The position numbers and the translations under genes were made by a program. Source: a virus. From it: DNA of 64,000 nucleotides. The notes under the pieces were generated by a model. It was not told where the DNA came from, ran no database searches, and was given only the letters and a program-made list of their open reading frames with translations. The stretch is taken from positions 31,293-95,292 of the IMG/VR virus record IMGVR_UViG_3300023184_004591. One strand, written 5' to 3'. Below are positions 9,861 through 30,488 of the stretch, piece after piece (the stretch's first letter is position 1; each line of letters starts with the position of its first letter).

Positions 9861-12260
9861 TTAACATTCTTTTCTCAATTTACCATCATAAAAATCAAAT
9901 CTATTGTGATCAGTTGGTGTTGAAAGTAATACGGAACCTTTTATATTACCCTTTACAGTTTCTTGATAACAATGGGACATAAGAGTTTGTTCGTATGGCA
10001 TACTAAATTTTGTTTTAAGATAACATTTATAGTTACCTTCTCTTGACATAACTATTGGCCAATTACATAAATAAATTTCACCTGTTGCATATGGAATCCC
10101 ATTGTAAGATTTGATGTGTTTAAATTCTAAATTAGGTGAGTTAGGATCTAAACCATGTTCCGGTAATCTTGGGTTATTTATCCAATGAGATTCCCTAAAA
10201 GATTGTGGGACATTATACCAAGACCATTGTTTAGTATGACTACCATAAAATTCTGTAAAGTTTAACTTTAAAAAATCAAAATTTTCATCCTTAACAATTT
10301 TTAAACTGTTATCAAATATGTTTTTAATTTTTCTAATAAAACCATTATTACAAGTAACTTCAGAACCATTATAAAAAAACATATCGTCCTCAAAAAAATA
10401 ATAATGACTTAAATTATTTTGTTCATCAAAATGTTCCGCAATAAATTGTCTACCACCTGTTATACCAATATTATCCTTTTTAATATGTTCAAAACCATAT
10501 TGATCACATAACTCAACATATCTTTGAGTTGTGGATAAATCAGTTGAATTGTTAAGTAAGTATTTTTTAGTTTTAGTTAAAAATGACTGGTCATATTCTA
10601 ACATAGATTCAATAAGAGTTTCAAATTGTTTTGGGGAATTAAACGTAATTACATATAACCCAATATCGCTACCAACACCGTTAATTTTTATTTTAGTTTC
10701 AACATCAATTGGTTTATCAAATTGAGTTAAATTTTCAAAAAACGGCCAAACTAAACCATTACTTTCAATTTCAAATCTATGAATTAACTCAGGATATTTG
10801 TGACATAAAATAGTGAATAAACATTCGTCGGCACCCATTAAATTATCCTTTAATGTTGATTCCATTATACCATAATATAATGAATTTATATTGTTTATTG
10901 TATCTTTATGACCACCAAAGAATCCTCCTCTAGCAACGTATTTAACAAAATCAGTATTACAATATTTTGCCATACTTTTTCGTTCAAATCCGTGAATCTC
11001 ATCATTGTATTCATATGGGTATGTTATATGAACATATTCTTTACCTAAAGATAACATATAATTTTCTAAATTATCTAAGACTTTTTCTTTAGTAAAATAC
11101 CCACTATCAACTGTATTTGTTAAACCACCATCAATCCAAAAAAAGTATTCAGAATTAAATGGATTAACAATTGAAGAATCATTTAACATAAACATTTTAG
11201 TAAACATCATTGGGTTATAATATTCTAATGATGCCTGAGGAGATTCTCCTAACCAACCAGCAAAATTTTTCCAACTGTCTGTATTACGTATTTCTTGGAT
11301 CTTATCAAAGAAAGGATTCCAAGATTTAAAGTCTTCTAAATTTTTAATAAATATTTTTGTTGGTTTATTCCCTCTTATTTTTAATACCTCTTCCTCTAAA
11401 TCTTTAGGTATCCAAATACACATCTGTACATCTGTTTCTAAAAATTCAAAAAATCTATTTTTATAATATTCAAAATCTCTTTTTGCCCAACCATCAAGAT
11501 TACCTCTACCCATATCCCACAAACCAGTTACCATAGTAACATTTTGTTTTTTATTTTGTGATTCATAAACAGATTCTTTGGGGTATAAGAAATGATCCCC
11601 TCTTTGTTTTAAGTCAATATCGTTTATGTAATTACATTGTTCACAAAAATCATCTAATAATTTTTGAGATTCCTCATAGGTATATTTTTCCCACCAATTG
11701 TTCTCAAATTCAATAATTGGTTTTTGTTTTAAATTTTTTATTGTTTCTGTAAACCCTTTTAACACAAATAAATCTTCAGTTTCCGTATCTATTTTTAAAA
11801 TGTCAATTTTTTCTAAATTATACCTATGGTTAATATTATCAAAAAAATTAGTATTGATATTAGAATTTTCATCATAATTAATTTTAGATAAACCTAAATT
11901 GTAATTTTGGGTACCAACACTGTTTTCTATTTCGTATTGAAATGCACTATCATTAATTGTGAAACCTTTTACTCTATCTGACATTGCAATATTCTCAACC
12001 GTTATATGAGGTTGGTTTGAATATTTTTCATCTAAATATTTATATAGTTCAGGATGAACCTCAAATAATATCGCTCTTTTAATATCCAAAGATTTATTTA
12101 ATTCATCAAAATAAGTCCCACTATTTGCTCCAACATCAACCACAACTAAATCTTTTTTATCTTTTAGTTTTGATATTAATACACCTGTGGCACTATATAT
12201 GTGCATTTTTGAGTGATCATCCCATATTTTAATCTCATTATAATATTTTGTTTTTTCCAT
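9861..12260 (-). CDS. Three-domain fusion: FkbM methyltransferase, HtrL/YibB-like GT, GT-A glycosyltransferase
   Basis: 799 aa from the ATG at 12258-12260; a longer reading enters the upstream gene. Domain 1 (about 30-215) is an FkbM-type SAM methyltransferase with VVDVGANSGTYF and a later IDILKIDTETED. Domain 2 (about 240-530) resembles the HtrL/YibB family: VTGLWDMGRGN and YFFWIDGGLT, a likely nucleotide-sugar binding site. Domain 3 (about 545-799) is a GT-A-like domain with FFEDDMFF as its DxD-type metal site. It would add sugars and methyl groups to a glycan. It is the last gene of the leftward glycan cluster, 13 nt after the preceding gene. A TATAAATA on the minus strand lies about 28 nt upstream. 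Confidence 0.75.
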   Translation of the reverse strand: MEKTKYYNEIKIWDDHSKMHIYSATGVLISKLKDKKDLVVVDVGANSGTYFDELNKSLDIKRAILFEVHPELYKYLDEKYSNQPHITVENIAMSDRVKGFTINDSAFQYEIENSVGTQNYNLGLSKINYDENSNINTNFFDNINHRYNLEKIDILKIDTETEDLFVLKGFTETIKNLKQKPIIEFENNWWEKYTYEESQKLLDDFCEQCNYINDIDLKQRGDHFLYPKESVYESQNKKQNVTMVTGLWDMGRGNLDGWAKRDFEYYKNRFFEFLETDVQMCIWIPKDLEEEVLKIRGNKPTKIFIKNLEDFKSWNPFFDKIQEIRNTDSWKNFAGWLGESPQASLEYYNPMMFTKMFMLNDSSIVNPFNSEYFFWIDGGLTNTVDSGYFTKEKVLDNLENYMLSLGKEYVHITYPYEYNDEIHGFERKSMAKYCNTDFVKYVARGGFFGGHKDTINNINSLYYGIMESTLKDNLMGADECLFTILCHKYPELIHRFEIESNGLVWPFFENLTQFDKPIDVETKIKINGVGSDIGLYVITFNSPKQFETLIESMLEYDQSFLTKTKKYLLNNSTDLSTTQRYVELCDQYGFEHIKKDNIGITGGRQFIAEHFDEQNNLSHYYFFEDDMFFYNGSEVTCNNGFIRKIKNIFDNSLKIVKDENFDFLKLNFTEFYGSHTKQWSWYNVPQSFRESHWINNPRLPEHGLDPNSPNLEFKHIKSYNGIPYATGEIYLCNWPIVMSREGNYKCYLKTKFSMPYEQTLMSHCYQETVKGNIKGSVLLSTPTDHNRFDFYDGKLRKEC

Positions 12261-12273
12261 ATATTTTGTATTT

Positions 12274-13260
12274 TTATACGTTACCAATATTTATATTTTG
12301 AATATGGGAGAACGATGTTACCACATATTCATTATTGTCTTTATTAGTTTTAAACTTTATTCTAGTTGATTTAGGTAAATCAAATGCTGGGTTAGATTTA
12401 AATGTATGTTCATTACAAATGAATGAAATTTTACTTTCATCCACACTAATAATATTTTTTACAAGTTCAGTAACATCCATTATTTTATCTTCAAAAACAT
12501 CTAACGATCTTCCCTCATCTCTTTGTTCTGCAAAATACCCAAATTTCGCATCAATAATTTCTATTTTTAAGTTAGATAAATCAGTACCATCATAAAAGTA
12601 TTTTGGAATAACTGTATAGTACGGATCCCATTCAAAATGAAACATTTCATATGGTTTAATACTTTCTTTAAAATTATTTGCTTCATGTAACCATGCCTCG
12701 CATGACCATCTTGATCCACCATAATAATCATTAAAAGGGATATTTTTTTGTACGTGTGTTGATTTCGTCCACCAAAAATTACCCCACCACCAATTACCAT
12801 TATTTGTTACACCAACAGTATCGTATTCGTCTAATTGTTTTACACATTTTTCCCAATTATCAATTAAAAAATATTCCAACATTTCAACCCAATTATTAAT
12901 ACCGTCAAATTTTAAATTACTAATTTCTTTTGTGTCAAAATTTTTGTATTTATTAAACACTCCTTTAGTGTGGAAATACAAAATTTTATAATCATCTCGT
13001 AATCTACTTAACTCATCAACTTTTCTCAATGCCATTATACCTTCACCCCAATTTATATCTGTATATTCAACAATATATTTAGGGTACTTAATCATAATAT
13101 CGTCTAACTTATCTTTTAAGGTATTTGTTGTGTCCGTAACAAAAAGATATAATTCGTCCGCAGATTCATATAAACCTGAATCATAAACTCTTTTAATTTG
13201 ATTGGTTAATTTTTCTTCCCAATCATTAATCATAAAACAATATGAAATAACCGCTACCAT
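12274..13260 (-). CDS. Putative glycosyltransferase
   Basis: 328 aa. The N-terminal about 220 residues look like a GT-A fold: a short first strand (MVAVISYCFM), a Trp-rich NGNWWWGNFWWTKS segment typical of acceptor-site loops in such enzymes, and a conserved ILYFHTKG. I see no clean DxD. The C-terminal about 100 residues are a separate beta-rich domain of unknown role (FICNEHTFKSNPAFDL). It lies 3 nt from the oxygenase gene and in one operon with the GT60-like enzyme and the two fusion enzymes. Confidence 0.6.
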   Translation of the reverse strand: MVAVISYCFMINDWEEKLTNQIKRVYDSGLYESADELYLFVTDTTNTLKDKLDDIMIKYPKYIVEYTDINWGEGIMALRKVDELSRLRDDYKILYFHTKGVFNKYKNFDTKEISNLKFDGINNWVEMLEYFLIDNWEKCVKQLDEYDTVGVTNNGNWWWGNFWWTKSTHVQKNIPFNDYYGGSRWSCEAWLHEANNFKESIKPYEMFHFEWDPYYTVIPKYFYDGTDLSNLKIEIIDAKFGYFAEQRDEGRSLDVFEDKIMDVTELVKNIISVDESKISFICNEHTFKSNPAFDLPKSTRIKFKTNKDNNEYVVTSFSHIQNINIGNV

Positions 13261-13263
13261 ATA

Positions 13264-13911
13264 TTACATTTTTTTAAAATAATCCCCAATACTAAATTTG
13301 GTATTGGTATTTATTGATCCTTTATCGTTAGGTATAAATTTATTTATATCAACTAACCTAAAATCTATTGATACTCTAGTTTTACCACTATTATTTAATT
13401 TATTACCGTGAATTTTATTAGCTCCATCAAAAACTAAAATTTCACCATAATTTACACAATACGGATAATAATCACCTTTATCCTCCTTACTTTCACACCA
13501 TATCGTATTTTGTTCGTTAGTGTCCATAAAGGGTAACCAAAAATTAACTTCAGTTATTGAATGATTATATGTCTTATCTTTGTGCCACTCCCCCACGGCA
13601 ACATTACCATCGGATAATTGTACTCTAAATGTTGGAATACTTTGGTATATGATTTCATCATATTCAAAAGTTTCTTTTAAGTGTTTAATTAATTCCAAAT
13701 ATAGAGGTTCTACTTTTTCTTTAAACTTAGTATAGTATTTTTTATGCCAAATTGTAGATTGATCATCTTCTCTCTTAAGTAAATCATAATTTTTTATTAA
13801 GTGAATGTCTTCTAAATCAAATTCATTAATATCTAAAATCTCCCTAATTATTTCCTTAAACGGGAATTTGTTCACATCGTATTGTATTTTATATGGGGTT
13901 GAGAGGTACAT
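13264..13911 (-). CDS. 2-oxoglutarate/Fe(II)-dependent oxygenase
   Basis: 215 aa. Facial triad visible as His110 and Asp112 (GEWHKDKTYNH) and His168 (NKIHGNK), followed by Arg179 (KTRVSIDFR) for 2-oxoglutarate binding. Such enzymes hydroxylate a substrate using oxygen and 2-oxoglutarate. The sequence looks most like the StrG-type oxygenases found in carbohydrate clusters, so a sugar is one candidate substrate. Because the neighbours include a peptide GlcNAc-transferase-like enzyme and Pro/Thr repeat proteins, prolyl hydroxylation is the more provocative alternative. Nothing in the sequence decides between them. Tight operon spacing on both sides (3 nt). Confidence 0.8.
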   Translation of the reverse strand: MYLSTPYKIQYDVNKFPFKEIIREILDINEFDLEDIHLIKNYDLLKREDDQSTIWHKKYYTKFKEKVEPLYLELIKHLKETFEYDEIIYQSIPTFRVQLSDGNVAVGEWHKDKTYNHSITEVNFWLPFMDTNEQNTIWCESKEDKGDYYPYCVNYGEILVFDGANKIHGNKLNNSGKTRVSIDFRLVDINKFIPNDKGSINTNTKFSIGDYFKKM

Positions 13912-13914: not shown

Positions 13915-15240
13915 TTATTTTTTTATGATCACACTAGTTATACTCCAATCGGGTCTGTTTTGATATATCTCAACCGATAAGATATTCTCATTTAAATAAG
14001 TGATGTCATCTTCAGTTAAATAATCAGATTGTATTTTACCCGTTGATATGAAATTTTTTAACATATCTAATGTTATTGTTTTTGTTGGGTCTCCCCACCC
14101 ACACCAATCCTTTTCAGGCATCAGAGCTTCTAAACTAGTATGTAAGTCCTCAAGTACATATATTCCCCCTGACTTTAATGTTTTAAATAATTTTGACAAT
14201 GTGATTTGTTGATCGTACATTCTATGTGAACCATCATCTAATATAACATCAATTTCATTATATTGGTTTGAGAATGATTCCAACATTTCAGGATTTGATT
14301 GGTCAATATTAATTAACTCAATACGATCTAAATTTTTATCACCTAAGTTTTTTTCACAGAAAGGTAAATTATTATCTAACCCTAAAACTTTTGAATTTTT
14401 AAAATAGTCTCTCCACATTAAAATAGATCCTCCATGATTTACACCGATCTCAACAAATGTTTTAACTTTTTCTTTAATAGGTAAAAATAAATCATCATAA
14501 ATCAATCTTAAATAATTGTGTTCATAATGTTTATCGGTATCATAATATTCTACAATATCAGACAATTTTTCACCATCAGGTATTTCTATATTAAAAATAT
14601 CATAATAACATTTATCAATAGTTCTATTTGGTAACATACCGTAAGAAAAGGCATGAAATATAAAATTTTTATTTATTTTATTTTTATACTCATTCCCATT
14701 TAATACTTTATTTGTAATTAATTTAATATTTGATTTAGAATCAACCATAACATCCATTAAATGCCCAAAACAAGTTTGGTCGTGCCATAATCCCGTTTTA
14801 TAGTATCCAAGTTCATTATTTGGTCCACCCAATAAATTATCACCTAACTCCCACCATTTATTCATTACTTGTTTTGTCCAATCCGAATTTTTCATCAAGA
14901 AAACGCCCGCATTTAATTTACTAGGTCCGTAATCTTCAGTACATATAATATTGTAATCTGGGTCAATAAAATCTTCTATACTATAAGTAAAATCACATAC
15001 TATCGCATCCGCATCTAAAAAAAGAATGTAGTCAGGGTTATATAATTCAAAAACCTCATTAATAAATTTTGGTTTATACCAAGTTGGGGATCTTCCCTCT
15101 AATGCGGTTTTTATTTTATTATCATCAGATTCTAAATGATAAATGTATCCCTTTTCATCACAATATTTTTTATTTATTTCTTTTGTGAATTTACCATAAC
15201 TAAGGTTAGTGGTAAAAAATTGAGCAATAACTATTTTCAT
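13915..15240 (-). CDS. Fusion of GT-A glycosyltransferase and class I SAM methyltransferase
   Basis: 441 aa. The N-terminal half (about 1-225) is a GT-A glycosyltransferase with FLDADAIV (Asp76-Ala-Asp78) and a galactosyltransferase-like layout, including LNAGVFLMKNS. The C-terminal half (about 235-441) is a Rossmann methyltransferase: FVEIGVNHGGS for SAM and VILDDGSHRMYDQQIT. This half is a clear paralogue of the stand-alone methyltransferase at 44501-45208, sharing the GWGDPTK motif and the ILDDGSH..MYDQQIT core. The fusion presumably couples sugar transfer with methyl capping. Two bases separate it from the GT60-like gene upstream. Confidence 0.82.
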   Translation of the reverse strand: MKIVIAQFFTTNLSYGKFTKEINKKYCDEKGYIYHLESDDNKIKTALEGRSPTWYKPKFINEVFELYNPDYILFLDADAIVCDFTYSIEDFIDPDYNIICTEDYGPSKLNAGVFLMKNSDWTKQVMNKWWELGDNLLGGPNNELGYYKTGLWHDQTCFGHLMDVMVDSKSNIKLITNKVLNGNEYKNKINKNFIFHAFSYGMLPNRTIDKCYYDIFNIEIPDGEKLSDIVEYYDTDKHYEHNYLRLIYDDLFLPIKEKVKTFVEIGVNHGGSILMWRDYFKNSKVLGLDNNLPFCEKNLGDKNLDRIELINIDQSNPEMLESFSNQYNEIDVILDDGSHRMYDQQITLSKLFKTLKSGGIYVLEDLHTSLEALMPEKDWCGWGDPTKTITLDMLKNFISTGKIQSDYLTEDDITYLNENILSVEIYQNRPDWSITSVIIKK

Positions 15241-15241
15241 A

Positions 15242-16489
15242 TTATAAATTACCTGTTAATCTATCACACCACCCTTTTGATATTGAGTGAGGCCATACAA
15301 CCCAATAGGTTGGTTTATCTGTAGCATTAAATTCTCTCCATACTTTACAATAACCATCAGGATCATTTTTCATCCTATTAATTTCATTAATATCGGCATC
15401 TAATCTATATAACGTTTCATCTTTTGAATTATGGAAGGCAACAACCCAAAAATCATAATCGGGTTCAGGTACACTACCATAATGAACATCAATACAATGT
15501 TTAAATATTGAAGAAAAGGAATCTTTCCATTCTTCTTCTGAACTATATGTATAAGGATTTGGTGGGTATTGTTTATCTAATGTGTATTGTTGTACCGCTC
15601 TTTTTGAGAATAATACACCAGAATATTTTTCATAGTCTTGTACTGTTCTTTCAGTACCTAATCCATAGATACCAAAGTCACTATCAGGAGTTTCACCATC
15701 AACACCTAATAATTGTCTATTTTTTTGGTGACATCTTTCGTTTCGTTTTCCCCAATCTTTATCATCATCCCATTGTTTTGTTCTACCCTTACGAGTATAT
15801 TCGTGCCAAATGACCGTTTTATGTGGGTGGAATAGATCATATCCGTGAGTATATGCTCTTACTGCAATTGAGATTTCTTCTCCATGAAAATAAAACTCAG
15901 GATCATGTTGTACCTCAGTTGAAAATTGACCTAAAGTAAAACAAAAGTGTGCCGAATAAAATCTTGAGGGAATTGGTTCTTTTAATTTATCCCAACCTGG
16001 TATTGTTTCAGGTAAAAAGAAAACACAACCTTCAGGTGTAAATCTATCGAAAGACATTCTCCACGGCTCCTTAACTCTACCTTGTGGGTCATTATCGGGA
16101 TCAAAAGAAGAAACATATCCTGTTAATAAAGGTTTTTTGTATCCTTTCTTTTGTAACTGTTTAATCATTTTAATTAAAGTGTCATCCCAATCCTTTTCAA
16201 ACCTCATATGTGAGTCAATCTGTAAAGTATATTCTTCACCTTCATATACTTGTTGAGTTAAATGTCTTGCCCAACAAACACCTGTCGATTCCGTATATGG
16301 AATATTTAAGATTCTGAATCTATCATCATTTTCATATTCTGACAGATCATCAAAACCATCTTCAGGGTGGAATTGTCTTGCAATACCAAGTCTAATGTTT
16401 TTTGGTTTTTTTGCCTTTTCCAACATATCTTTAATTGTTGGTATTAATTGTGGGTCCCTATAGGACGCAATTTGTACAAATATTCTCAT
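15242..16489 (-). CDS. GT60-like (GlcNAc) glycosyltransferase, possible peptide O-GlcNAc-transferase
   Basis: 415 aa. The start MRIFVQIASYRDPQLIPTI and LQIDSHMRFEKDWDD (Asp92-Ser-His94 as metal-binding site) are hallmarks of the Pfam GlcNAc family, CAZy GT60. Characterised GT60 members transfer GlcNAc from UDP-GlcNAc to Ser/Thr or hydroxyproline of proteins; Dictyostelium Skp1 Gnt1 is the best-known case. The gene starts 60 nt downstream of the stop of the giant Thr/Pro-repeat protein, which offers hundreds of Thr residues. A degenerate TATTTTT motif at 16506-16512 lies 23 nt upstream of the start codon. Bacterial members often act in surface polysaccharide synthesis, so the acceptor is unproven. 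Confidence 0.8.
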   Translation of the reverse strand: MRIFVQIASYRDPQLIPTIKDMLEKAKKPKNIRLGIARQFHPEDGFDDLSEYENDDRFRILNIPYTESTGVCWARHLTQQVYEGEEYTLQIDSHMRFEKDWDDTLIKMIKQLQKKGYKKPLLTGYVSSFDPDNDPQGRVKEPWRMSFDRFTPEGCVFFLPETIPGWDKLKEPIPSRFYSAHFCFTLGQFSTEVQHDPEFYFHGEEISIAVRAYTHGYDLFHPHKTVIWHEYTRKGRTKQWDDDKDWGKRNERCHQKNRQLLGVDGETPDSDFGIYGLGTERTVQDYEKYSGVLFSKRAVQQYTLDKQYPPNPYTYSSEEEWKDSFSSIFKHCIDVHYGSVPEPDYDFWVVAFHNSKDETLYRLDADINEINRMKNDPDGYCKVWREFNATDKPTYWVVWPHSISKGWCDRLTGNL

Positions 16490-16548: not shown

Positions 16549-19500
16549 TCATTTACAAGGGAAAGATACATTACATGATGCACAATTGTTTGTTCCCGAC
16601 CAATCTATCCCAGCACCAACTGCAGTTCCTGTTGATGTTGATATTGTTGTCCAACATTGACTACCTTGAGTAACAATTTGACCCGCAATGGTTCCTACTG
16701 GTAAAATAATTATTCTGTCGGCAAGAACTCCACAACAGTGTGCAACTAACCATTTAACACCACCTGTTGTTGTTGGTGTAATTGTAGGTGTTGGAGTTGG
16801 CGTTGCAGTTTTCGTAGGTGTTGGTGTCGGTGTTGGACATGGGTTTGTAGTCAGACAAGTAGCACAACTACTTCCGTATGATACATTATTCCAAGTTAAT
16901 GTTGCAGGTCCTGCAATTGTACCAGAAATTTGATAACAGTTATTATTAATGTCAGTAACTACGTCACCGATCGCAAATGATGACGGTAAACTAATAATAC
17001 CATCAGGGTCCGCATTACAACAAGGTTTCACAAAGAAGAATGAGTAGGATGTGGTTGGTGTTAGAGTTAATGTTGGTGTTAATGTTGGTGTTGAAGTTCT
17101 CGTTGGTGTTGGTGTTAATGTTTTAGTTAGTGTTGGTGTTGGTGTTGGACATGCAGGGCAGAAAGTACATCCTAAACCATCGATATCATTTCCATATACA
17201 GAACCATTCCATGTTACTGTTGCAGGTCCTATAACAGTTGATGAAACCACATAACAGTTACCGTTTGTTGCTCCAACAACATATAAAATGTCAAGATTCA
17301 CATATATTGCAGGTAAGTAAAGAACCGCAGTGGATCCATCACAACATGATGTTCCTAATCCCCAAGTGTATTCTGTGGTTACCGTTGGTGTATTAGTCGG
17401 TGTTGGTGTTAACGTAGGTGTTGAAGTTCTTGTTGGTGTTAATGTTGGAGTTAACGTAGGGGTTAACGTAGGTGTAGAAGTTCTTGTTGGTGTTAATGTA
17501 GGTGTTAACGTTGGAGTTGAAGTTCTTGTTGGTGTTAATGTTGGGGTTAACGTAGGTGTAGAAGTTCTTGTTGGTGTTAATGTTGGTGTATTAGTCAATG
17601 TCTGAGTCAGCGTTGGTGTTAACGTTGGTGTTAATGTAGGGGTGTTAGTTAAAGTCTGAGTTAATGTAGGTGTTAATGTTGGGGTTGAAGTTCTTGTAGG
17701 GGTTAACGTAGGGGTATTAGTCAATGTCTGAGTTAATGTAGGTGTTAATGTTGGGGTTGAAGTTCTTGTAGGGGTTAACGTAGGGGTATTAGTCAACGTT
17801 GGAGTTAATGTTGGAGTTAACGTAGGTGTATTAGTCAAGGTCTGAGTTAAAGTTTGGGTCAATGTTGGGGTATTAGTCAACGTTGGAGTCAATGTAGGGG
17901 TTGAGGTTCTTGTTGGGGTTAATGTTGGCGTTAACGTAGGGGTGTTAGTTAACGTTTGAGTTAATGTAGGTGTTAATGTTGGTGTACTAGTTAATGTCTG
18001 AGTCAACGTTTGAGTTAACGTAGGTGTATTAGTTAAAGTTTGAGTTAACGTAGGGGTTAACGTAGGTGTGTTGGTTAAAGTTTGGGTCAACGTTGGTGTT
18101 AACGTAGGTGTTGAAGTTCTTGTTGGTGTTAATGTTGGAGTTAATGTTGGTGTATTAGTCAATGTCTGAGTTAATGTTGGTGTTAATGTAGGGGTATTAG
18201 TTAATGTCTGAGTTAACGTTGGTGTCAATGTAGGTGTTGATGTTAACGTTGGTGTCAATGTAGGTGTTGATGTTAATGTTTGAGTCAGGGTTTGAGTAGG
18301 TGTTGGCGTTGGTGTCAATCCTATTGTTGAGGTTAAAGTTTGTGTTAATGTAGGTGTAGGTGTTGAGGTTAAAGTTTGAGTTAATGTAGGTGTATTGGTT
18401 AGAGTTGGTGTTAACGATCTTGTTAATGTTGGGGTATTAGTTAATGTCTGACTTAAAGTCTGAGTCAATGTTGGAGTATTAGTTAAAGTTTGAGTCAATG
18501 TTGGAGTTAACGTTGGTGTGTTAGTTAAAGTTTGAGTCAATGTCTGAGTCAATGTAGGGGTATTGGTTAATGTCTGAGTTAACGTTGGTGTTAATGTAGG
18601 AGTATTAGTTAATGTTTGAGTCAACGTTTGAGTCAATGTAGGGGTTGAAGTTCTTGTTGGTGTTAACGTTGGTGTTAACGTAGGGGTGTTAGTTAACGTT
18701 TGAGTTAATGTTGGAGTTAACGTCGGGGTATTAGTTAATGTCTGAGTTAATGTTTGAGTCAATGTAGGGGTGTTAGTCAATGTTGGAGTTAACGATCCTG
18801 TTAACGTAGGGGTGTTAGTTAACGTTTGAGTTAGAGTTTGTGTTAATGTAGGGGTGTTAGTTAAAGTTTGAGTCAATGTAGGAGTATTAGTCAACGTAGG
18901 CGTTAACGATCTTGTTAATGTTGGAGTATTAGTTAAAGTTTGTGTTAATGTAGGTGTTAATGTTGGTGTGTTAGTTAACGTTTGAGTCAACGTTGGCGTG
19001 TTAGTTAATGTTTGGGTTAATGTAGGGGTTAATGTGGGGGTTGAAGTTAACGTTTGAGTTACCGTTTGAGTTAACGTTGGGGTATTAGTAGGTGTCTCCG
19101 TAGGTGTTGGTGTTGGAGTATTTGTAGTATTTGATGTTCTTGTTAACGTTGGTGTGTTAGTAAGAGTAGGCGTAGGGGTTGAAGTCAACGTTTGTGTTAA
19201 CGTAGGAGTTAAGGTTGGGGTTGAAGTTAACGTTTGTGTTAACGTAGGAGTTAGAGTTGGAGTTGAAGTTAACGTAGGTGTTAATGTTGGAGTTAATGTA
19301 GGGGTGTTAGTCAATGTCTGAGTCAACGTTGGGGTTGAAGTTCTTGTTGGAGTTAATGATCCTGTTAACGTAGGAGTGTTAGTTAAAGTTTGGGTTAATG
19401 TAGGTGTTAGAGTTGGGGTACTGGTTAAAGTTTGAGTTAATGTTGGGGTATTAGTTGAAGTTAACGTAGGGGTATTAGTTAATGTCTGAGTTAAAGTTTG

Positions 19501-20835
19501 AGTCAATGTTGGAGTTAATGTTGGGGTATTAGTCAATGTTTGGGTTAATGTAGGTGTTAGAGTTGGGGTTGAAGTTAACGTAGGTGTTAACGTAGGGGTT
19601 AGAGTAGGTGTTGAAGTTCTTGTTGGTGTTAACGTAGGGGTTAATGTAGGGGTGTTAGTTAAAGTTTGAGTCAACGTTGGTGTTAACGTAGGTGTTAACG
19701 TCGGAGTATTAGTTAATGTCTGAGTCAATGTCTGAGTCAACGTTGGGGTTAACGTAGGGGTATTAGTTAATGTTTGGGTTAACGTAGGGGTTACCGTTCT
19801 TGTTAAAGTAGGGGTATTAGTTAAGGTAGGAGTTACAGTTCTTGTTAACGTAGGGGTATTGGTAGGAGTTGAAGTTCTTGTTGGTGTTACAGTTTGAGTT
19901 AACGTAGGGGTGTTAGTTAATGTTTGGGTTAATGTCGGAGTTAACGTAGGAGTATTTGTTAACGTCGGAGTATTAGTCAATGTCTGAGTTAACGTTTGTG
20001 TTAACGTTGGGGTATTAGTAGGGGTATTGGTAGGCGTTGATGTTAAAGTTTGAGTTAATGTTTGAGTTAACGTAGGTGTATTAGTTGGGGTTGACGTAGG
20101 AGTTAACGTTGGTGTATTGGTAGGTGTTGATGTTAATGTTTGAGTTACCGTTTGAGTTAATGTAGGGGTGTTAGTTAAAGTTTGAGTTAATGTCGGAGTT
20201 AACGTAGGAGTATTTGTTAAAGTTTGTGTTAACGTTGGTGTATTGGTAGGTGTTGATGTTAAAGTTTGAGTTAATGTCTGAGTTAATGTTGGAGTTAAAG
20301 TAGGGGTATTAGTTAGAGTACTAATAGGTGTTGACGTTAATGTTGGTGTTAATGTTGGTATTGGTAAAATACAAGTATTCCCAATACATGGTGATCCATA
20401 ATTTAAAGTAACATTATCTAAATTAATTACATTACTACCACAATAATATACCGTAGAGTATCCAGGAACAAAAACATTCCCAATTACATTTCCAAAACAA
20501 TCAGTGTATGTGAATGATCCCCCACCATCATTATTACAAGAAACCGCAAGACAACAACAAGTACAAGGACCTGTTGCGGTTGGGGTTAATGTTGGCGTAT
20601 GGGTTGGTGTATTAGTTGGAACACATTGGTGATATTGGAATGTTTCACAATTTTGTGAATCAACTATTTTTACTAAAATTGGTGTTGTCTCATCTAATGG
20701 GGATGGAGAATAAAACGTTGTTGTTCCACCACCAAATGTCGTCGCATAATAACAATACGTATTTGTTACATCACACACATAAATATTATATGGAGGCGTT
20801 CCTGTTGATACGGATAATGTTATTTGATACGGCAT
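16549..20835 (-). CDS. Giant Thr/Pro-repeat (mucin-like) virion surface protein with Cys-rich modules
   Basis: 1428 aa. Residues about 1-75 are a small beta domain (PYNIYVCDV...ILVKIVD) also found as the stand-alone protein at 22930-23235, probably the virion anchor. A Cys-rich segment follows (about 90-157). Residues about 158-1151 are almost only Thr, Pro, Leu, Asn, Gln and Ser in units such as [14 protein letters not shown]. Three Cys-rich modules of about 75-90 aa close the protein (starting SCCDG, PCCNAD and HCCGVL), separated by short TP linkers and related to the six modules of the 20913-22898 protein. No signal peptide. Thr every second residue would make an extended, heavily O-glycosylatable stalk. 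GT60-like and other sugar genes follow directly. Confidence 0.8.
16690..17380 (-). repeat. Three C-terminal Cys-rich modules with TP linkers
   Basis: Approximate bounds. Each module has a CC pair, about 20 residues later an NxNCY or SQCW site, then TWN or DWSG, and a final Cys pair (CTFCPAC, CATC, CASC). TPTPTLTKT-type linkers separate them. The same CC...G.C(Y/W)...C..C layout recurs six times in the neighbouring 661-aa protein. Confidence 0.6.
17381..20362 (-). repeat. About 3 kb of Thr/Pro-coding degenerate repeats
   Basis: On the plus strand the tract reads as variants of GTTGGTGTTAATGTTGG and TTAGTTAAAGTTTGAGT. The coded unit is TPTLT alternating with [10 protein letters not shown] or RTSTPTLT. 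The protein pattern is nearly perfect while synonymous third positions vary freely from unit to unit, so there are few long exact DNA repeats. Long plus-strand open frames here (VGVNVGVEV) are shadows. Confidence 0.85.
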
Positions 20836-20912: not shown

Positions 20913-22898
20913 TTATGAACAATTATGAATCGCAGTACATTCTGGACAATCAATATATTCTGTAATTGTACCTAAAAATAAGGTTGATGGTCCCGAAGTT
21001 GGTGTACTATTTTCCCAACAAGTCCCACTATCACTATCATAAAAGTATGTCGGTAATCCATTTGATGGAACTAAAACTGTTTGATCTGGTTGCACCCCAC
21101 AACAATCAATTAGTTGAACATAGTTACAAACATTTTGACTGATACAACCATTACAATTATCGTATTGGGATTCCCATACGCTGAAGTTTGTTGTTGGGGT
21201 ATCTGTTGTGATCGAAACACAACTATAACAGTTTCCAACGGAGTCAGTATACCTCCTACCAATTGTGTATGATCCAAATGCAATTTCTGTAATCCCATTT
21301 TCACAACAAGATTCAAATAAATAATAATCAGGACAATTTCCAATATCCATCTGACAACTCTGACAACTATCATATTGGGCTTTAGGTATTATAATTAAAG
21401 GCCAAGTTGGTGTTCCAACTAAAGACCATCCAACAACTTCCCAACAAACACCATTTACATCACCAAATATTGTTCCCGTTGTTGGAACTTGCTCCATGAT
21501 GGCTACCTCAACCTGTAATAGGTCACAACAATTTCTAAGAGTGACATAAGCAAAATCAGGACAAGTATTTGAGTCCACACAATCAATACAATCAGTCGAA
21601 GGCGTTGTTAAAGTTATTTCATAATTTGTTGGTAATTCATATGCTTCCGATATAATAGTCCAACAAATTCCGTCCGAATCAACCCAAACCTCATCTATGG
21701 AGAGATCCAATGTTGTATGTATTACTTCTTGTGAGAAAATACCACAACAAGACTGAACCACCCAAACAGACGGACAATTGTTATTACTAATACAATCTTC
21801 GCAATTAGTATATCCTGTTGTTCCAATCGTAATTGTAGGGGCAGTTACAGGTGCGGATGTGCTTGAGTCAATACTCCAACAGAATCCGTAATCATCAACA
21901 AAATAATCACCAACTGTTAAACCTAATGATCCTGAAACATATTCCAAACCCTTAACACAACAATTTACAATATTAACATTATCAGGACAACGATTACTTG
22001 AAATACAAGATTCACAACTCTCATAGTTACTTACTAATGATCTAACACTATTTGGTGAGGTTGTTCCAGTACTTTCTATCTCCCAACAATTACCATCTGA
22101 ATCACTCCAAAATGACCCTATTGTTAAATTTGTCCCATTAATAATTTCGGTAACGGTTGGTTCACAACAATTTCTTAACAGATAAAATTCACCGTCAGGT
22201 ATTGAACAATTTTTTTCATAATTTAATGTATATGTAAAATTGGCAGGACCCTTTATTACGGAATTATGTGTAACGCTCATGCCAACAACAAAGAACACAT
22301 CACATGAATCGTAATATTGGGTGAAAGTATGTGAGAGATCAAAACATAATGTATTTTTGGCAAACCCGTACCTTGTCGGTGTAATAACTGACGTAAGTGG
22401 TATTCTTCCGGTTACTGATAAATCATGACATTGGTATAAAAATAAACTAATTACAAATGATGGAGGTATTCCACTATTTCTTATATCAAAATAAATGTTA
22501 CCACATAAATGTATTGTGTCTCCCGACCTAATGTCAACAGGGCAAGGTACCCCAACATTTGATATTGACTCAGGTATTGGAGGTACAGTACCTCCTTTAT
22601 ATGGTAAAGGAAAATCCCACGGACAACCATTCCATCCACAACCTTTACTAGCACCAACATATAATGAAGAAAATTTTGCAGAAGACGACGAAGGTGTGAA
22701 ATACCCCGAATTTGACGCAATTAACGTATTTTCCGTTGAGCACCCACCAATAAGTGATGCGACTTGAGATAACGTAGCTTTATATGATGATCCTGCAGGG
22801 TTTTGTGATGTGTCCCCCGTAATCACTATGTGTAGTATATCATCAAGTGATATACTTGGGGCTAATGTTCTATCTGTTAGTCTTTGGTAATTCGGCAT
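20913..22898 (-). CDS. Virion protein with six Cys-rich modules
   Basis: 661 aa. The N-terminus (SISLDDILHIVITGD...YKATLSQVASLIGGC) is the short fibre-attachment domain also seen at the starts of the proteins at 27944 and 23645. A beta-rich region follows (about 60-240). Then come six modules of about 70 aa, each with a CC pair (NCCEP, NCCVKG, SCCGIF, NCCDLL, SCCENG, DCCGVQ), a D(S)xGxCW site and a closing CxxC. The regular Cys layout suggests small disulfide- or metal-stabilised domains strung as beads. Likely a tail or fibre appendage in contact with the host surface. I do not recognise the module family. Late-type motif upstream. Confidence 0.65.
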   Translation of the reverse strand: MPNYQRLTDRTLAPSISLDDILHIVITGDTSQNPAGSSYKATLSQVASLIGGCSTENTLIASNSGYFTPSSSSAKFSSLYVGASKGCGWNGCPWDFPLPYKGGTVPPIPESISNVGVPCPVDIRSGDTIHLCGNIYFDIRNSGIPPSFVISLFLYQCHDLSVTGRIPLTSVITPTRYGFAKNTLCFDLSHTFTQYYDSCDVFFVVGMSVTHNSVIKGPANFTYTLNYEKNCSIPDGEFYLLRNCCEPTVTEIINGTNLTIGSFWSDSDGNCWEIESTGTTSPNSVRSLVSNYESCESCISSNRCPDNVNIVNCCVKGLEYVSGSLGLTVGDYFVDDYGFCWSIDSSTSAPVTAPTITIGTTGYTNCEDCISNNNCPSVWVVQSCCGIFSQEVIHTTLDLSIDEVWVDSDGICWTIISEAYELPTNYEITLTTPSTDCIDCVDSNTCPDFAYVTLRNCCDLLQVEVAIMEQVPTTGTIFGDVNGVCWEVVGWSLVGTPTWPLIIIPKAQYDSCQSCQMDIGNCPDYYLFESCCENGITEIAFGSYTIGRRYTDSVGNCYSCVSITTDTPTTNFSVWESQYDNCNGCISQNVCNYVQLIDCCGVQPDQTVLVPSNGLPTYFYDSDSGTCWENSTPTSGPSTLFLGTITEYIDCPECTAIHNCS

Positions 22899-23644: not shown

Positions 23645-26600
23645 TTAATTATTTTTTAAAACCATTACTGTTAATGTACCTTGTTTTATTGACCCACCAA
23701 TACCACTAACAGAGGCGGAAGACCCCGAAACATAAACGGCATCCACTTCAATTGTATGTGAACCCGCAGCTAAAGTAAGTATTACTGAAGTATTCCAATT
23801 GGCAACCCAGTTCGTAACGTTAGCAAGTGCCGCTGCCGTTGGGTTGTCAGCATATATTCTTTGATATCCACCTGAGGCTAATACCGCACCATCAACTAAA
23901 ATTGCAACATCTAATGCTGAACCACCTGTTGAAGTTGTTGCGAGCGTATTAACACCACCATTTGTCTGTATGTAAACCATTGTTTGTCCCGAAACTGTGA
24001 TTGTTGTCGATAAACCTGGAATTAAAGTCAATGCGGTTGTTGCACTTGTAAGATTTAATTGGGAGGTACCCGTAACCATTATACCTGATTGACCTAAAGT
24101 TAAAGAACTTCCATTACCTGTGTAAGTACCTGAAAAAGAACCAAAGAACCCAACTGATGAGGTTACAGTTCCTGACATAGTTGTTGTACCGTCATCTTTT
24201 ACTTTGAAGACCTCAGTACCACTATTATTTTTTAATGTTAATTGGTCTATAGTAGTTGCACTTGCACTTACACTTTGTTGTACTCTTAAATTATCAAATT
24301 GTAAATTTTGTGATGCTGCGGTAGAGTAATTGAAGAATACTCCAAATACACTCATAAGTGTTGAGGTGTATGTACTATCAACCGCAGAACCTATTAACGT
24401 ACTTGTTGTTGTTGGATCACCCCATGCAGATGCTCCGTCATCTCTAAAATAATACGACCAAGTATTTGTTGATGGTGTGTATACAATTCTAGCACTGACA
24501 TAATTTGTGTTACCTGAGAAAAGTCCACCAGTAATAATATCTGTTTGAGTTCCCGCAAGACCATTATTATATTTAACAAGTTTCCAATTTCGTGTACCTG
24601 TTGTACCATAGACTAATGCGTAACCACTACCCGCACTTTGTAAGTTAGTATTTGATCCTACCAATACTACCGCTCCTGCGTATGAGGAAGCTCCAAATCC
24701 TGCAAATATTGACGCTCTATTAGTCCTTAAATTGAAAGTCCATTCAATTGTAGATAATGAGTTATTACTTGATAATGTTGGGTTAAATGGTGAACCAAAT
24801 CCTGAAAGAGGAACTGTTGTATAAGATTGTCCAGCAGTACCTCCATTAGCAATATTCAAATAGTTAGTTACTATTGTGGCATTTCCTGTACCTGTATTTG
24901 TATTTGTATATGTTAGGGATGGTGTTCCTCCTGGAGATAAGGTTACTCTACCATAATCATCAATAAATGGTGTTGAGACAGATGGGGTTGGTGGTACATT
25001 TGGAGAAACTAAAGTTAATGTTGAGGCACTTACAGTTGTTGCGGTAACTGACTTCATTGAAGTATTTCCTGTCACAGTTAAATCTCCATTAACTGTCATT
25101 CCTGTTACACTATTAATTGTTGCGGTTAAATCAGGTTGACCATTATTTTGTTTAACCGTAAAAATATTATTATTGTATGTGAATCCTGTCACATATGTGT
25201 TAGGATCTATTGGTAAATTGTTATAAGTTGTTGCTGAAATTGTATTTGCCGTTAAACCACTTTGGAAAATAGTTCCCCCTGTCATAGTTCCCCCACTTAA
25301 TGGAAGATATTTTCCGGTAACATTATCAGGTAAATTGTTATAAGTTGTTGCTGAAATTGTATTTGCGGTTAAACTTTGCACTGAGGTATTTCCTGTCACA
25401 GTTAAATCTCCATTAACTGTCATTCCTGTTACACTATTAATTGTTGTGGTTAAGTCAGGTTGACCATTATTTTGTTTAACCGTAAAGACATTATCACCAT
25501 ACGTAAACCCTGTCACATATGTGTTAGGATCTATTGGTAAATTGTTATAAGTTGTTGCTGAAATTACATCACTTGTAATGGATGATGCACTGTATATATC
25601 ATTACCACCCATGTTAATGTCTCCCACCATTGGTCTTGACCCATCAACTAAAAGGTACTGTGTATGGTCATCCGCACTTAAACCTAATAAGTTACCGTGA
25701 GTTGCAGATGCGTTAACACCTCCAGCCTTAAATCCAACAATAGGTCTTATATCTTCTATTTGGTAAATGTTTGACCCTCCTTGTCGGACGTATATGCTTG
25801 CAATTTCAGTTACTGAATCACTAAAATATGTTGGGGGTAATGGTAATAACGCATTTTCTGCCTGTATTAAAGTTGGATATTGATTTTGACCTAACACTAA
25901 AAAGTACTGTTCATTTACTGCATCACCAACAACATACAATGTATGTTTTGTGAACGCACTAATTGATAATGGAGAAATAGTTCCACTATTGTCATCATAA
26001 CCTACAACTACTTGAGTTGTTGCAGATGTTGACCATCCTGTACCACCATCTCTATAATACATTGTAAATGTAATTCCATTACCACCATCAGGGAAAAATT
26101 CGTTTGTGGAATAATAATAATCCCCACCAGTTACATCTATATTATATGGTGTTATATTTTCCGTAACAATTGATCCTTTTGAATAAATTGGTCCAATACC
26201 GTTTCTAAATAAATTACTATATTGGTTAGATGTATGGTTCGCATTTAAAGGACTGGCATCAATTAAAACAATATCGGTGGAGTTTGTTACAACTCTACCT
26301 AAAACAATATTATAAACTGAATTAGGTCTTAAACCTGAATTAGATAAAATTCCATTGTTATTAATAAATAAATACTGATTACTATTTTGTGGTAACTCTT
26401 TTAGAGTATCACTCCAATCAAAACGTTTAATAACACCATTGTTAATTATACTTTCTAAATAACCATAACCTTCAGATACACTAATTGTGGTTCCACTAAC
26501 TATTGTAATAATACCACCCTCAAGAACACCCATTGTACCACCTTCAAAAAGAAGTGTGGATAAATCAGTGTGTGTACCATCTTTAAATGTTACAGAAAGT

Positions 26601-27649
26601 TTTCTTGTTATATCCAATTCACCATCCGTATGGTCTAAGAAAGACCAATACACATCTTCTGAAACATTAAATATTTTTTGGTGACTTAAACTACCTTGTA
26701 TTGTTCCTTGAGTTCCAGAATGATCAACTGATAAATCATAAGTTAACGAATCTATAATACTAACACCATCAATATCAAATGTTGAGGGTCCACCAATATT
26801 CATTACTCTAAAACCAATATCCCAATTTGAAATATTTACACTAGATACAATTAAATTTGCATTATCTTCTATTTTAAACGCAATTGATCCAGAAGTATTA
26901 TCTCCAATACAATTACCACTACTATAACTAATTTGAGACCCAATACCTTGACAAAAATTCGCAATCGTTGGGACACCTGTTGGCTCATTAAAATGGTTTT
27001 CTAATGACGCAAATGCGGTATAAGTAGGGCTGTTGGCAATAACGTAAACACCATAGGTGTACGATCCATTTAAGTCAATGTACTCACCAAAAAATTCTGT
27101 GTTTGCAATTGATGATGTAACACTAATTTGAACGTCATTGTCATACATTGATACTTTATGTGCCAAAGCAAACCCATCTAAGTCGTCACACGCAATACCA
27201 ACACCTGAGGTGGCACCACTAATAGTTAAAAATGATATTTGACCCGTATCGCCTAATCTAAAAATAATGTTTGATGGATTATCAGGTGTTATTACAACAG
27301 AATTAATGTCCACACCAACAATACTAACATACGGTTTGTTTGATAAGTTAATTGGTGGTTCAACATAAACACCTGACCCCACTTGAATTGAATATCTATT
27401 TGTAAACGATGGTCCTGATATTGATTGGACTGCATCATATAAAGATGTAAAATCTACATCCCCACCTTTACCAACTTTAATTACATTTTCTACAAATGTA
27501 TTATCTAATACATAATTTTTTAAATCATCTATTTTAGTTTCACTTGTAGTTCCTGTTGGATTTATGTAACTAACAAAAGGTACTATATCGGTGGCAGTAT
27601 AACCTGATTTACCGACATATGGAAGTTGTGATATTTTTACGTCTGACAT
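23645..27649 (-). CDS. Long tail fibre with beta-helix and tip domain
   Basis: 1334 aa. Residues about 1-50 form the attachment domain (MSDVKISQLPYVGKSGY...). Residues about 55-330 look like a right-handed beta-helix (VGKGGDVDFTSLYDAVQSI, YSIQVGSGVYVEPPIN), as in pectate-lyase-like fibre domains. Residues about 690-860 are repeated stalk segments (GDLTVTGNTS, SATTYNNLP). The last about 145 residues form a compact beta tip (LAAGSHTIEVDAV...GTLTVMVLKNN). The tip is clearly related to the C-terminus of the exported protein at 62025-63533. Likely trimeric and host-recognising. A 179-bp direct repeat inside the gene may allow rearrangement. Confidence 0.8.
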   Translation of the reverse strand: MSDVKISQLPYVGKSGYTATDIVPFVSYINPTGTTSETKIDDLKNYVLDNTFVENVIKVGKGGDVDFTSLYDAVQSISGPSFTNRYSIQVGSGVYVEPPINLSNKPYVSIVGVDINSVVITPDNPSNIIFRLGDTGQISFLTISGATSGVGIACDDLDGFALAHKVSMYDNDVQISVTSSIANTEFFGEYIDLNGSYTYGVYVIANSPTYTAFASLENHFNEPTGVPTIANFCQGIGSQISYSSGNCIGDNTSGSIAFKIEDNANLIVSSVNISNWDIGFRVMNIGGPSTFDIDGVSIIDSLTYDLSVDHSGTQGTIQGSLSHQKIFNVSEDVYWSFLDHTDGELDITRKLSVTFKDGTHTDLSTLLFEGGTMGVLEGGIITIVSGTTISVSEGYGYLESIINNGVIKRFDWSDTLKELPQNSNQYLFINNNGILSNSGLRPNSVYNIVLGRVVTNSTDIVLIDASPLNANHTSNQYSNLFRNGIGPIYSKGSIVTENITPYNIDVTGGDYYYSTNEFFPDGGNGITFTMYYRDGGTGWSTSATTQVVVGYDDNSGTISPLSISAFTKHTLYVVGDAVNEQYFLVLGQNQYPTLIQAENALLPLPPTYFSDSVTEIASIYVRQGGSNIYQIEDIRPIVGFKAGGVNASATHGNLLGLSADDHTQYLLVDGSRPMVGDINMGGNDIYSASSITSDVISATTYNNLPIDPNTYVTGFTYGDNVFTVKQNNGQPDLTTTINSVTGMTVNGDLTVTGNTSVQSLTANTISATTYNNLPDNVTGKYLPLSGGTMTGGTIFQSGLTANTISATTYNNLPIDPNTYVTGFTYNNNIFTVKQNNGQPDLTATINSVTGMTVNGDLTVTGNTSMKSVTATTVSASTLTLVSPNVPPTPSVSTPFIDDYGRVTLSPGGTPSLTYTNTNTGTGNATIVTNYLNIANGGTAGQSYTTVPLSGFGSPFNPTLSSNNSLSTIEWTFNLRTNRASIFAGFGASSYAGAVVLVGSNTNLQSAGSGYALVYGTTGTRNWKLVKYNNGLAGTQTDIITGGLFSGNTNYVSARIVYTPSTNTWSYYFRDDGASAWGDPTTTSTLIGSAVDSTYTSTLMSVFGVFFNYSTAASQNLQFDNLRVQQSVSASATTIDQLTLKNNSGTEVFKVKDDGTTTMSGTVTSSVGFFGSFSGTYTGNGSSLTLGQSGIMVTGTSQLNLTSATTALTLIPGLSTTITVSGQTMVYIQTNGGVNTLATTSTGGSALDVAILVDGAVLASGGYQRIYADNPTAAALANVTNWVANWNTSVILTLAAGSHTIEVDAVYVSGSSASVSGIGGSIKQGTLTVMVLKNN
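25063..25241 (-). repeat. Direct repeat copy 1 in the fibre gene
   Basis: About 179 bp, matching 25387-25565 with only scattered substitutions and a constant 324-bp offset. Codes for the segment containing NGQPDLTATINSV, TVNGDLTVTGNTS and ATTYNNLPIDPN. Confidence 0.8.
25387..25565 (-). repeat. Direct repeat copy 2 in the fibre gene
   Basis: Second copy of the 179-bp repeat. Differences include GTTGTGGTTAAGTC against GTTGCGGTTAAATC and a changed YGDN/YNNN codon group. Recombination between copies would delete 324 bp (108 codons) in frame. Confidence 0.8.
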
Positions 27650-27657
27650 TATCTTTT

Positions 27658-27671: not shown

Positions 27672-27674
27672 CTT

Positions 27675-27944
27675 TTATTCTACGATTATGTAGGCACCAT
27701 TTTCAGAAATTAATCGGTTTCCAAACTCATCGGTTATAACAGGTATACAAGGGACATTTAATATACACGTTTTATCATAAAACGGAATGTAAATTGTATA
27801 CGATCCACGATAGTCCTCACTTATATAATTATATGGTAATGTTACGGTTCCAAGATCAATTACATTACCGTAACAATCGGTATGTATGATTTCGGATTGT
27901 TGTCCGATATAATTGTTTGTTAATATTTGTAAAACTGAACTCAT
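27675..27944 (-). CDS. Small adaptor-like virion protein
   Basis: 89 aa. The core CYGNVIDLGTVTLPYNY...YRGSYTIYI aligns with the N-terminal domain of the mucin-like protein at 28605-30488 (VVINLGNVTLPCTF...YGTYTILVL). The tail DEFGNRLISENGAYIIVE is a short hydrophobic end peptide of the same style as at 22930 and 28605. It appears to be a minimal version of the anchor plus end peptide without the Thr/Pro stalk. It shares one base with the next gene upstream. Confidence 0.55.
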   Translation of the reverse strand: MSSVLQILTNNYIGQQSEIIHTDCYGNVIDLGTVTLPYNYISEDYRGSYTIYIPFYDKTCILNVPCIPVITDEFGNRLISENGAYIIVE

Positions 27945-28582: not shown

Positions 28583-28587
28583 TTCTT

Positions 28588-28602
28588 TTTATTTTATAAA
28601 TA
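28588..28602 (-). promoter_or_regulatory. Late-promoter-like motif
   Basis: Minus strand TATTTATAAAATAAA begins 20 nt before the ATG at 28582, in the 22-bp gap between genes. Confidence 0.55.
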
Positions 28603-28604
28603 GT

Positions 28605-30488
28605 TTATGTTATCATAATCTTTGATCCATCTGCCTGTAGAACAAAGAATCCATCGGATTGTAATAAATAGTTTATTATATTTGTCGGTGTTGGTGTTAA
28701 TGTCGGTGTTAAAGTAGGTGTGTTAGTTAAGGTCTGAGTCAATGTCTGAGTTAACGTTGGTGTTAAGGTAGGCGTTAATGTTGGAGTTGAAGTTCTTGTT
28801 GGTGTTAACGTCTGAGTTAATGTTGGTGTCGGTGTTGAAGTTGGTGGGTTAAGAGGATCTATCAACTCAACGTATAGTAAATCATTATCACCAATACTTT
28901 GTGTTAAATTATAAATGTAAGTACTTGGTGGTGTTCCTGTGAAACCACTTATTAAGATTCCGTTTTCGTAAACATTAACTGTGTGGTTAGTACCACCTGT
29001 AACACTTATGATTAAGTAATCACCAGGAACGTTAGTATATAAGAATCCATTTCCACTTGTGTTTTGTAAAATTGGGTAATAGAAGTTAAATACCGCACTA
29101 AAATTACCACCTATTGAGGTTATCACTGAACCATCGGTATCGTAATTACTAACTAAGAAGTTTCTATATGGTGTTGGTGTAGGTGTTGGGGTTAAGGTTG
29201 AGGTTGGTGTAGGTGTTGGTGGATAACATGCATCTGTACAAATTACATACCCTGGTTCACCTGTTAAATCATATCCAGTTGGTACTTCAGGTATTAATGA
29301 TAAAACTTCAAAAGTATAACCACGATTTTCAGGGTTATTATAAAAATACCCAATAGTTAAAGGGGTTAATGATTTAACGTTAAATGTCCCAACGTTTGAA
29401 CAACCACCACCATAACAACCATACCCTGTTACTTCATAATAATATATTATTTGGGTTGAGGTTGGGGTAACTGTCGGTGTTGGGGTTGAGGTTAATGTTG
29501 GTGTTAATGTCGGTGTTAATGTTGGGGTTAATGTTGGTGTTAATGTTGGTGTTGACGTTAAAGTAGGTGTCGGAGTTAAAGTTGGTGTTGGTGTTGGTGT
29601 GTTTGTTATATAAACTATTTCATATGTGAAATCACAGTTCAATGTTGTTGGTGTTGGTGTTGACGTTAACGTTTGTGTTAACGTAGGTGTGTTAGTTGAC
29701 GTTAACGTTTGTGTTAATGTTTGTGTTAACGTAGGTGTGTTAGTTGGTGTTTGTGTTAATCCTGGTGTTTTTGTATGTGTTGGTGTTTGTGTACGTGTAG
29801 GTGTCACGGTTTGAGTTAACGTTTGTGTTAATGTTGGCGTTAATGTTGGTGTTTGTGTACGTGTAGGTGTCACGGTTTGAGTTAACGTTTGTGTTAATGT
29901 TGGCGTTAATGTTGGTGTTTGCGTAGGTGTTGCCGTTAACGTAGGCGTTGGTGTTAATGTTGCCGTTAATGTTAATGTTGGAGTTTGGGTAATAATACAA
30001 TAACCACTTGTTGTAGTTTGTGTTGGTCTTGGTGTTCTAGTTGGTTTTGGTGTTTTACTTGGTGAAGGACAACCACATGGATCCGTACACGTCGGATGAG
30101 GTGTGGATGTTACCGTTTGAGTTACCGTTTGAGTTACAGTAATTGTTGGTGTTGGTATACAAACATATCTTGTTTCAGTTGGTGTAACTGTTGGTGTTGG
30201 TGTAGCAGTCGGTGTTTTTGTTAATGTTGGTGTTGGTGTTGGTGTCGGAGTAGGTCTGACAACATTTAATATGTTTGGGCAATCATTATCAACACATTGA
30301 TCATTTAATACCAATATGGTGTAAGTACCATAAATTTCTCTTTGTGGATCAAGTAAAGATGGGTTAAATGTACATGGAAGTGTTACATTCCCCAAGTTAA
30401 TTACAACATTATCGTTGTCAGGTTTAAATAATATATTTGCAACCTCACCATCGTAATTAAAACTTTTTATTATTATGCTTTGACTCAT
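28605..30488 (-). CDS. Second Thr/Pro-repeat (mucin-like) virion protein
   Basis: 627 aa. Anchor domain at about 1-80 (INLGNVTLPCTF). A Thr/Pro tract with several Cys islands covers about 82-285, and another TP tract about 298-345. A beta domain follows (YYYEVTGYGCYGGGCSNVG...), then a short TP linker and a second beta domain (about 440-550, resembling a C2-like or jelly-roll fold). A final TP tract and the end peptide YLLQSDGFFVLQADGSKIMIT close the protein. The repeats use the same TPTLTQTLT vocabulary as the giant protein at 16549. Its start lies 2 nt from the stop of the papain-domain protein, so the two are co-expressed. Role: probably a glycosylated surface stalk carrying binding domains. 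Confidence 0.72.
   Translation of the reverse strand: MSQSIIIKSFNYDGEVANILFKPDNDNVVINLGNVTLPCTFNPSLLDPQREIYGTYTILVLNDQCVDNDCPNILNVVRPTPTPTPTPTLTKTPTATPTPTVTPTETRYVCIPTPTITVTQTVTQTVTSTPHPTCTDPCGCPSPSKTPKPTRTPRPTQTTTSGYCIITQTPTLTLTATLTPTPTLTATPTQTPTLTPTLTQTLTQTVTPTRTQTPTLTPTLTQTLTQTVTPTRTQTPTHTKTPGLTQTPTNTPTLTQTLTQTLTSTNTPTLTQTLTSTPTPTTLNCDFTYEIVYITNTPTPTPTLTPTPTLTSTPTLTPTLTPTLTPTLTPTLTSTPTPTVTPTSTQIIYYYEVTGYGCYGGGCSNVGTFNVKSLTPLTIGYFYNNPENRGYTFEVLSLIPEVPTGYDLTGEPGYVICTDACYPPTPTPTSTLTPTPTPTPYRNFLVSNYDTDGSVITSIGGNFSAVFNFYYPILQNTSGNGFLYTNVPGDYLIISVTGGTNHTVNVYENGILISGFTGTPPSTYIYNLTQSIGDNDLLYVELIDPLNPPTSTPTPTLTQTLTPTRTSTPTLTPTLTPTLTQTLTQTLTNTPTLTPTLTPTPTNIINYLLQSDGFFVLQADGSKIMIT

Follow-up and report, generated by a model that had tools for sequence, protein, structure and literature searches.

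A putative mucin-type O-glycosylation system for virion appendages encoded beside PolB in a contractile-tailed phage

The leftward block and its Thr-rich tracts

The window, i.e., the whole stretch of 64,000 nucleotides analysed here, comprises bases 31293-95292 of a 95,292-base IMG/VR virus record (IMGVR_UViG_3300023184_004591). The presence in it of tail tube and sheath genes makes the phage contractile-tailed. From 33364 to 8952 its minus strand forms a single co-directional, leftward block encoding, in order, a protein that ends in a peptidase, fibre-like proteins, two proteins with long tracts rich in Thr, sugar enzymes and a Thr-linker protein, the gene for which (8952-9833) adjoins that for DNA polymerase B (PolB). 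An initial annotation of this DNA had placed the two Thr/Pro proteins and the Thr-rich linker correctly. The features of the block are:

8952..9833, minus strand: conserved baseplate-like protein with a BppU-like N-terminal fold and a distal poly-Thr/Thr-Pro linker (homologues in 73 loci; Foldseek)
9861..12287, minus strand: FkbM methyltransferase, HtrL/YibB and a C-terminal domain, the second invariant bookend of the sugar cassette (PF05050, PF09612)
12274..13260, minus strand: variable-cassette gene, possible glycosyltransferase, no family match
13264..13911, minus strand: variable-cassette gene with a weak match to sporadic carbohydrate-cluster 2OG-Fe(II) oxygenases (TIGR04324, below cut-off)
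13915..15240, minus strand: variable-cassette gene, GT34 plus methyltransferase (PF05637, E 3e-13)
15242..16489, minus strand: GT60 glycosyltransferase (PF11397, E 5e-73; AF2 model; D92/H94 invariant), the proposed initiating UDP-GlcNAc:polypeptide alpha-GlcNAc-transferase
16549..20835, minus strand: mucin-like stalk protein of 1428 aa, with an N-terminal domain, a (Thr-x)n tract of ~1000 residues and three 6-Cys modules
17341..20355, minus strand: the (Thr-x)n tract, which spans stalk-protein residues 161-1165 (alternation count, codon pattern)
20913..22898, minus strand: fibre-like protein in which the 6-Cys module found at the end of the stalk protein occurs six times
23645..27649, minus strand: probable fibre-like protein of 1334 aa, so assigned from position and composition (homologues in 11 GT60 loci)
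28605..30488, minus strand: 627-aa protein with several shorter (Thr-x)n tracts
30491..33364, minus strand: protein with short TPTPT tracts and a C-terminal papain-family peptidase, at the start of the block (phrog_16701, E 1.5e-56; PF00112)

In the stalk protein Thr stands at 490 of the 503 alternate positions between residues 161 and 1165, giving the long tract and dense potential O-sites by which mucins are recognised. Without interruption the T-x alternation extends over as many as 160 Thr, while shuffles that preserve composition reach no more than 17. Could such regularity derive from a DNA microsatellite? The entropy of the Thr-phase codons is 0.16, 0.14 and 1.88 bits at codon positions 1, 2 and 3 respectively, which rules that origin out: with the first two positions near-fixed and the third near-random, it is at the protein level that Thr at alternate residues has been selected. 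The intervening residue is Leu, Pro, Gln, Asn, Ser or Arg, with Pro at just 148 of 502 alternate positions. Hence of the initial 'Thr/Pro' label the long Thr-rich tracts stand but a rule for Pro does not, and (Thr-x)n is the better description. In 31 of 37 non-redundant related loci, described below, there are 225 alternating runs, whereas shuffled proteins have none, and there x is Pro, Asn, Gln, Val, Ile, Leu, Lys, Arg, Glu or Ser.

Where on the virion might such tracts be? Foldseek matches of 8952-9833, with modest E-values, are to the baseplates of phage NF5 and TP901-1 type and to BppU-domain proteins, and the combination of a BppU-like N-terminal fold with a distal Thr tract would place at least one tract on the baseplate. 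The phage transferases, as in known cases of phage virion glycosylation, adjoin virion genes, though genes whose virion status is itself presumed. The 6-Cys module (CC...GxC[WY]...CxxC...C) has a beads-on-string arrangement beside the Thr tracts, in six copies in 20913-22898 and three in 16549-20835; the 17 copies found with its profile are spread over 9 loci, and hence it is not present throughout.

Elsewhere in the window there is a second, plus-strand sugar-gene cluster (36434-47095), partly conserved across related loci, with a phrog_7162 glycosyltransferase, a two-domain GT2, and GT4-like, methyltransferase-like and nucleotidyltransferase-like genes. A protein of 1699 aa (53429-58528) combines a laminin-G-like domain with ten DUF5122 beta-propeller repeats. 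The Bacteroidota-style signal peptides and repeats of two proteins encoded at 60713-63539 suggest a Bacteroidota host.

A GT60 enzyme bordering a variable sugar cassette

In a profile search 15242-16489 matches PF11397 over its full length (247 bits against a cut-off of 21), which bears out its initial description as GT60-like. The structural search that had been advocated was made with an AlphaFold2 model (pLDDT 88), and the best PDB matches are polypeptide GalNAc-transferases (ppGalNAc-Ts), the enzymes that start mucin O-glycosylation. A sequence search of the PDB with the GT60 profile gave no solved relative, and one of NCBIfam no match. Residues 92-94 are DSH, with D92 and H94 conserved without exception in 132 phage and bacterial sequences. 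This is the DxH that replaces DxD in both GT27 and GT60, families that have Ser/Thr O-glycosylation in common (PMC7185993), and the Trypanosoma cruzi GT60 enzyme TcOGNT1 forms GlcNAc-alpha-Thr on the mucins of that parasite (PMC9472816). From family, fold and motif the phage protein is proposed to be a UDP-GlcNAc:polypeptide alpha-GlcNAc-transferase. No paper that connects phages with GT60 or with mucin-like proteins came up in a literature search.

GT60 is one bookend of a cassette whose other is a YibB-type enzyme, the YibB part being present in 35 of the 37 non-redundant loci. Between them are 0-9 genes per locus, 116 in total, belonging to 46 families of which 25 are singletons. These are mostly glycosyl-, methyl-, carbamoyl-, acetyl- and aminotransferases, with GT2, GT7, GT10, GT11, GT25 and GT34 among the families matched. 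Not one of the 116 proteins has two or more hydrophobic (membrane) segments, and neither the flippase or polymerase nor the membrane initiator characteristic of O-antigen/LPS cassettes is apparent in them, which disfavours an export route of O-antigen type. GT60 has no membrane segment in any of 80 copies (the best 80 of 369 relatives), and all the enzymes look soluble. The pattern is what would be expected if the glycan of a protein always began with one sugar and varied in those further out.

The functions initially ascribed to the individual cassette genes have fared variously. For 13915-15240 GT34 holds and the methyltransferase matches are below curated cut-offs, while of the methyltransferase-GT-GT series attributed to 9861-12287, FkbM and HtrL/YibB are matched and the third part is a C-terminal domain. 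The glycosyltransferase call at 12274-13260 is unconfirmed, and the 2OG oxygenase call at 13264-13911 amounts to a weak match (TIGR04324, 51 bits against a cut-off of 150).

Linkage among related loci and in cultured phages

Relatives are encoded on 369 viral contig stretches, of which the best 80, 75-95% identical, were taken and reduced to 37 non-redundant loci that are of one lineage and hence not independent. Their conserved order is tract-bearing fibres, GT60, the 0-9 variable genes, the YibB-type enzyme, the baseplate-like protein and PolB. The gene immediately 5' of GT60, co-directional with it in 36 of the 37, has a tract in 23 (27 when two genes are counted), in contrast to 58 of 524 other genes of the same loci (p ~3e-12) and to 27 of 190 other upstream genes; in 14 loci it is without one. 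Conserved linkage in related phages, which had been set beforehand as the test on which the proposal could fail, is thus what was found. Of eleven GT60 records checked that have little or no adjacent tract, eight carry (Thr-x)8 runs elsewhere and the other three are fragments of <40 kb. Approached from the other side, 49 viral records anchored on tracts include 14 with GT60, some just 29-42% identical to 15242-16489, and 35 in which none was detected, many of them fragments. When 40 of these records were tested for YibB, it was present in 9 of the 14 with GT60 and in 0 of the 26 without. The association of tract and GT60 is seen again in a number of distinct GT60 branches whose identity to 15242-16489 is 29-46%.

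Among 50,697 phage records GT60 is present in just three, all of cultured jumbo phages to which the present one is distantly related: XacN1, CM1 and RAS14, the latter two being very similar Stenotrophomonas phages. All three have the YibB-type bookend, and (Thr-x)8 runs number 122 in XacN1 and three each in CM1 and RAS14, with none in the reversed control. No such run is present in 16 comparison phages without GT60, most of them PolB relatives (3/3 versus 0/16, Fisher p 0.001, or 0.0065 with CM1 and RAS14 counted once). The comparison phages are named relatives; anchoring on XacN1 PolB in viral contigs gave 16 loci, mostly short contigs, that were not used. At least 13 XacN1 ORFs contain tracts, several of them lying next to the tail sheath gene, and in both XacN1 and RAS14 the nearest tract is more than 9 kb away from GT60. 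In XacN1, cf. the virion-like 30491-33364, a tract protein likewise has a papain-family gene in its vicinity. At least two glycoproteins have been reported in XacN1 virions, and the authors of that report suggest that they are products of the phage transferases, among which is the GT60 gene ORF334 (PMC5852040).

Are there cellular counterparts? Most bacterial GT60 homologues lack such tracts nearby, and bacterial genomes with these homologues have no consistent tract excess over a reversed-pattern control. There is weak enrichment of Thr-rich proteins near the bacterial GT60 genes (7/261 versus 3/571 genes, p 0.013, with Nostoc counted more than once). In the Jiulongibacter sediminis chromosome (L278:7945-15142), two GT60-type genes flank a gene for a Thr/Pro-rich protein, followed by NodU-like and FkbM-like genes, and this locus is a cellular version of the pairing of GT60 with a Thr-rich protein. 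In Nostoc (L325:7971-9250, L330:8322-8900) small Thr-rich proteins are encoded directly upstream of GT60 homologues.

Proposed function, alternatives and known systems

The leftward block is probably a system for mucin-type O-glycosylation of virion appendages. Long fibre and baseplate proteins would carry (Thr-x)n stalks, to the Thr residues of which cytosolic GT60 would add alpha-linked GlcNAc, so starting O-glycans. Extension and decoration of these would fall to a set of transferases and tailoring enzymes that is specific to each genome and ends with the YibB-type enzyme. In the contractile-tailed virion the decorated proteins would then form stiff, extended stalks, coated in sugar and bearing Cys-rich modules, with a presumed mechanical or adhesive role and with adhesion, shielding, reach or bait as possible purposes. 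That the phage makes and glycosylates its own stalks, as originally put forward, is strongly supported by gene linkage; the glycan and its presence on virions are extrapolated from linkage and homology.

Might the cassette instead serve to alter the envelope of the host (its LPS, capsule or surface glycans), for instance to counter superinfection, with the Thr-rich proteins being unrelated neighbours? Glycosyltransferase clusters of cyanophages and jumbo phages have been published with that reading (PMC7824862), and the window has its further sugar-gene cluster. However, characterised GT60 enzymes use protein acceptors (PMC9472816, PMC7185993), the tract gene is the immediate neighbour of GT60, and GT60 predicts (Thr-x)n tracts also in phages of proteobacterial hosts. 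Together with the dearth of membrane segments in GT60 and in the cassette proteins, this renders the envelope alternative, raised already in the initial annotation, disfavoured and quite unlikely. It seems no likelier that the tracts are unmodified flexible or extended fibre linkers and that GT60 acts on some other protein of virion or host. Secreted proteins commonly have Thr/Pro linkers, and many viral contigs have Thr/Pro tracts with no detectable GT60, but strict Thr alternation with near-random third codon positions exceeds the needs of a linker, and the co-occurrence with GT60 in cultured phages also argues against it.

Some GT60 enzymes modify hydroxyproline, and the 2OG-oxygenase-like gene at 13264-13911 sits in the cassette, so a Skp1-like route was considered, in which the prolines of the tract are first hydroxylated by the oxygenase and GT60 then attaches GlcNAc to the hydroxyproline. 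Such a route would have a conserved prolyl-hydroxylase partner, yet the gene is in none of the 80 related loci (the best 80 of 369) and so is not a conserved part of the system. Moreover, what its product best, if weakly, resembles is a carbohydrate-cluster oxygenase, and in the tract it is Thr, not Pro, that is fixed. This route is very improbable indeed and was rejected.

If the proposed glycosylation of phage stalks is correct, mucin-type protein O-glycosylation extends to tailed phages, with XacN1, RAS14 and CM1 as a cultured test case, and several 'core' phage glycosyltransferases currently read as DNA- or envelope-modifying gain a target. The conserved initiator with its exchangeable extension genes would then be a natural toolkit for O-glycans on simple Thr-x peptides in bacteria. 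A bolder and rather doubtful extension is that large aquatic phages own a genuine viral mucin system whose glycan locus is polymorphic. Exchangeable sugar genes would lie between an invariant initiator and an invariant terminal enzyme, so that the bottle-brush fibres of each phage would bear a glycan peculiar to it, perhaps baiting the glycan-binding proteins on the surface of Bacteroidota hosts.

Moraphages, to which the present phage is likened by description, are large freshwater phages with predicted Bacteroidota hosts and four core glycosyltransferase groups whose target is unassigned (PMC12619734). XacN1 has a GT60 that is 46% identical, a YibB-type bookend, many (Thr-x)n proteins and reported virion glycoproteins, but has a proteobacterial host and dispersed tracts away from GT60; neither the tracts nor the GT60 family is described in the text of PMC5852040 consulted here. 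Phage-encoded glycosyltransferases modify virion proteins in mycobacteriophages also (Freeman et al. 2023, cited in PMC12619734), though there the glycans are at the C-termini of capsid and tail-tube subunits and, in that summary, no long mucin-like stalks are described. With the mucin-type O-glycosylation by ppGalNAc-Ts (GT27) there is in common the nearest solved fold, the DxH motif, a dense Thr scaffold and flanking Cys-rich modules, while the family is another, the presumed donor is UDP-GlcNAc and the setting is a prokaryotic virus. The T. cruzi system similarly pairs GT60 with Thr-rich surface proteins, TcOGNT making the GlcNAc-alpha-Thr start that is then elongated (PMC9472816). However, TcOGNT is a Golgi enzyme acting on the GPI-anchored mucins of a eukaryote, and its counterpart here is an apparently soluble phage enzyme whose likely substrates are fibre and baseplate proteins with strict Thr-x alternation.
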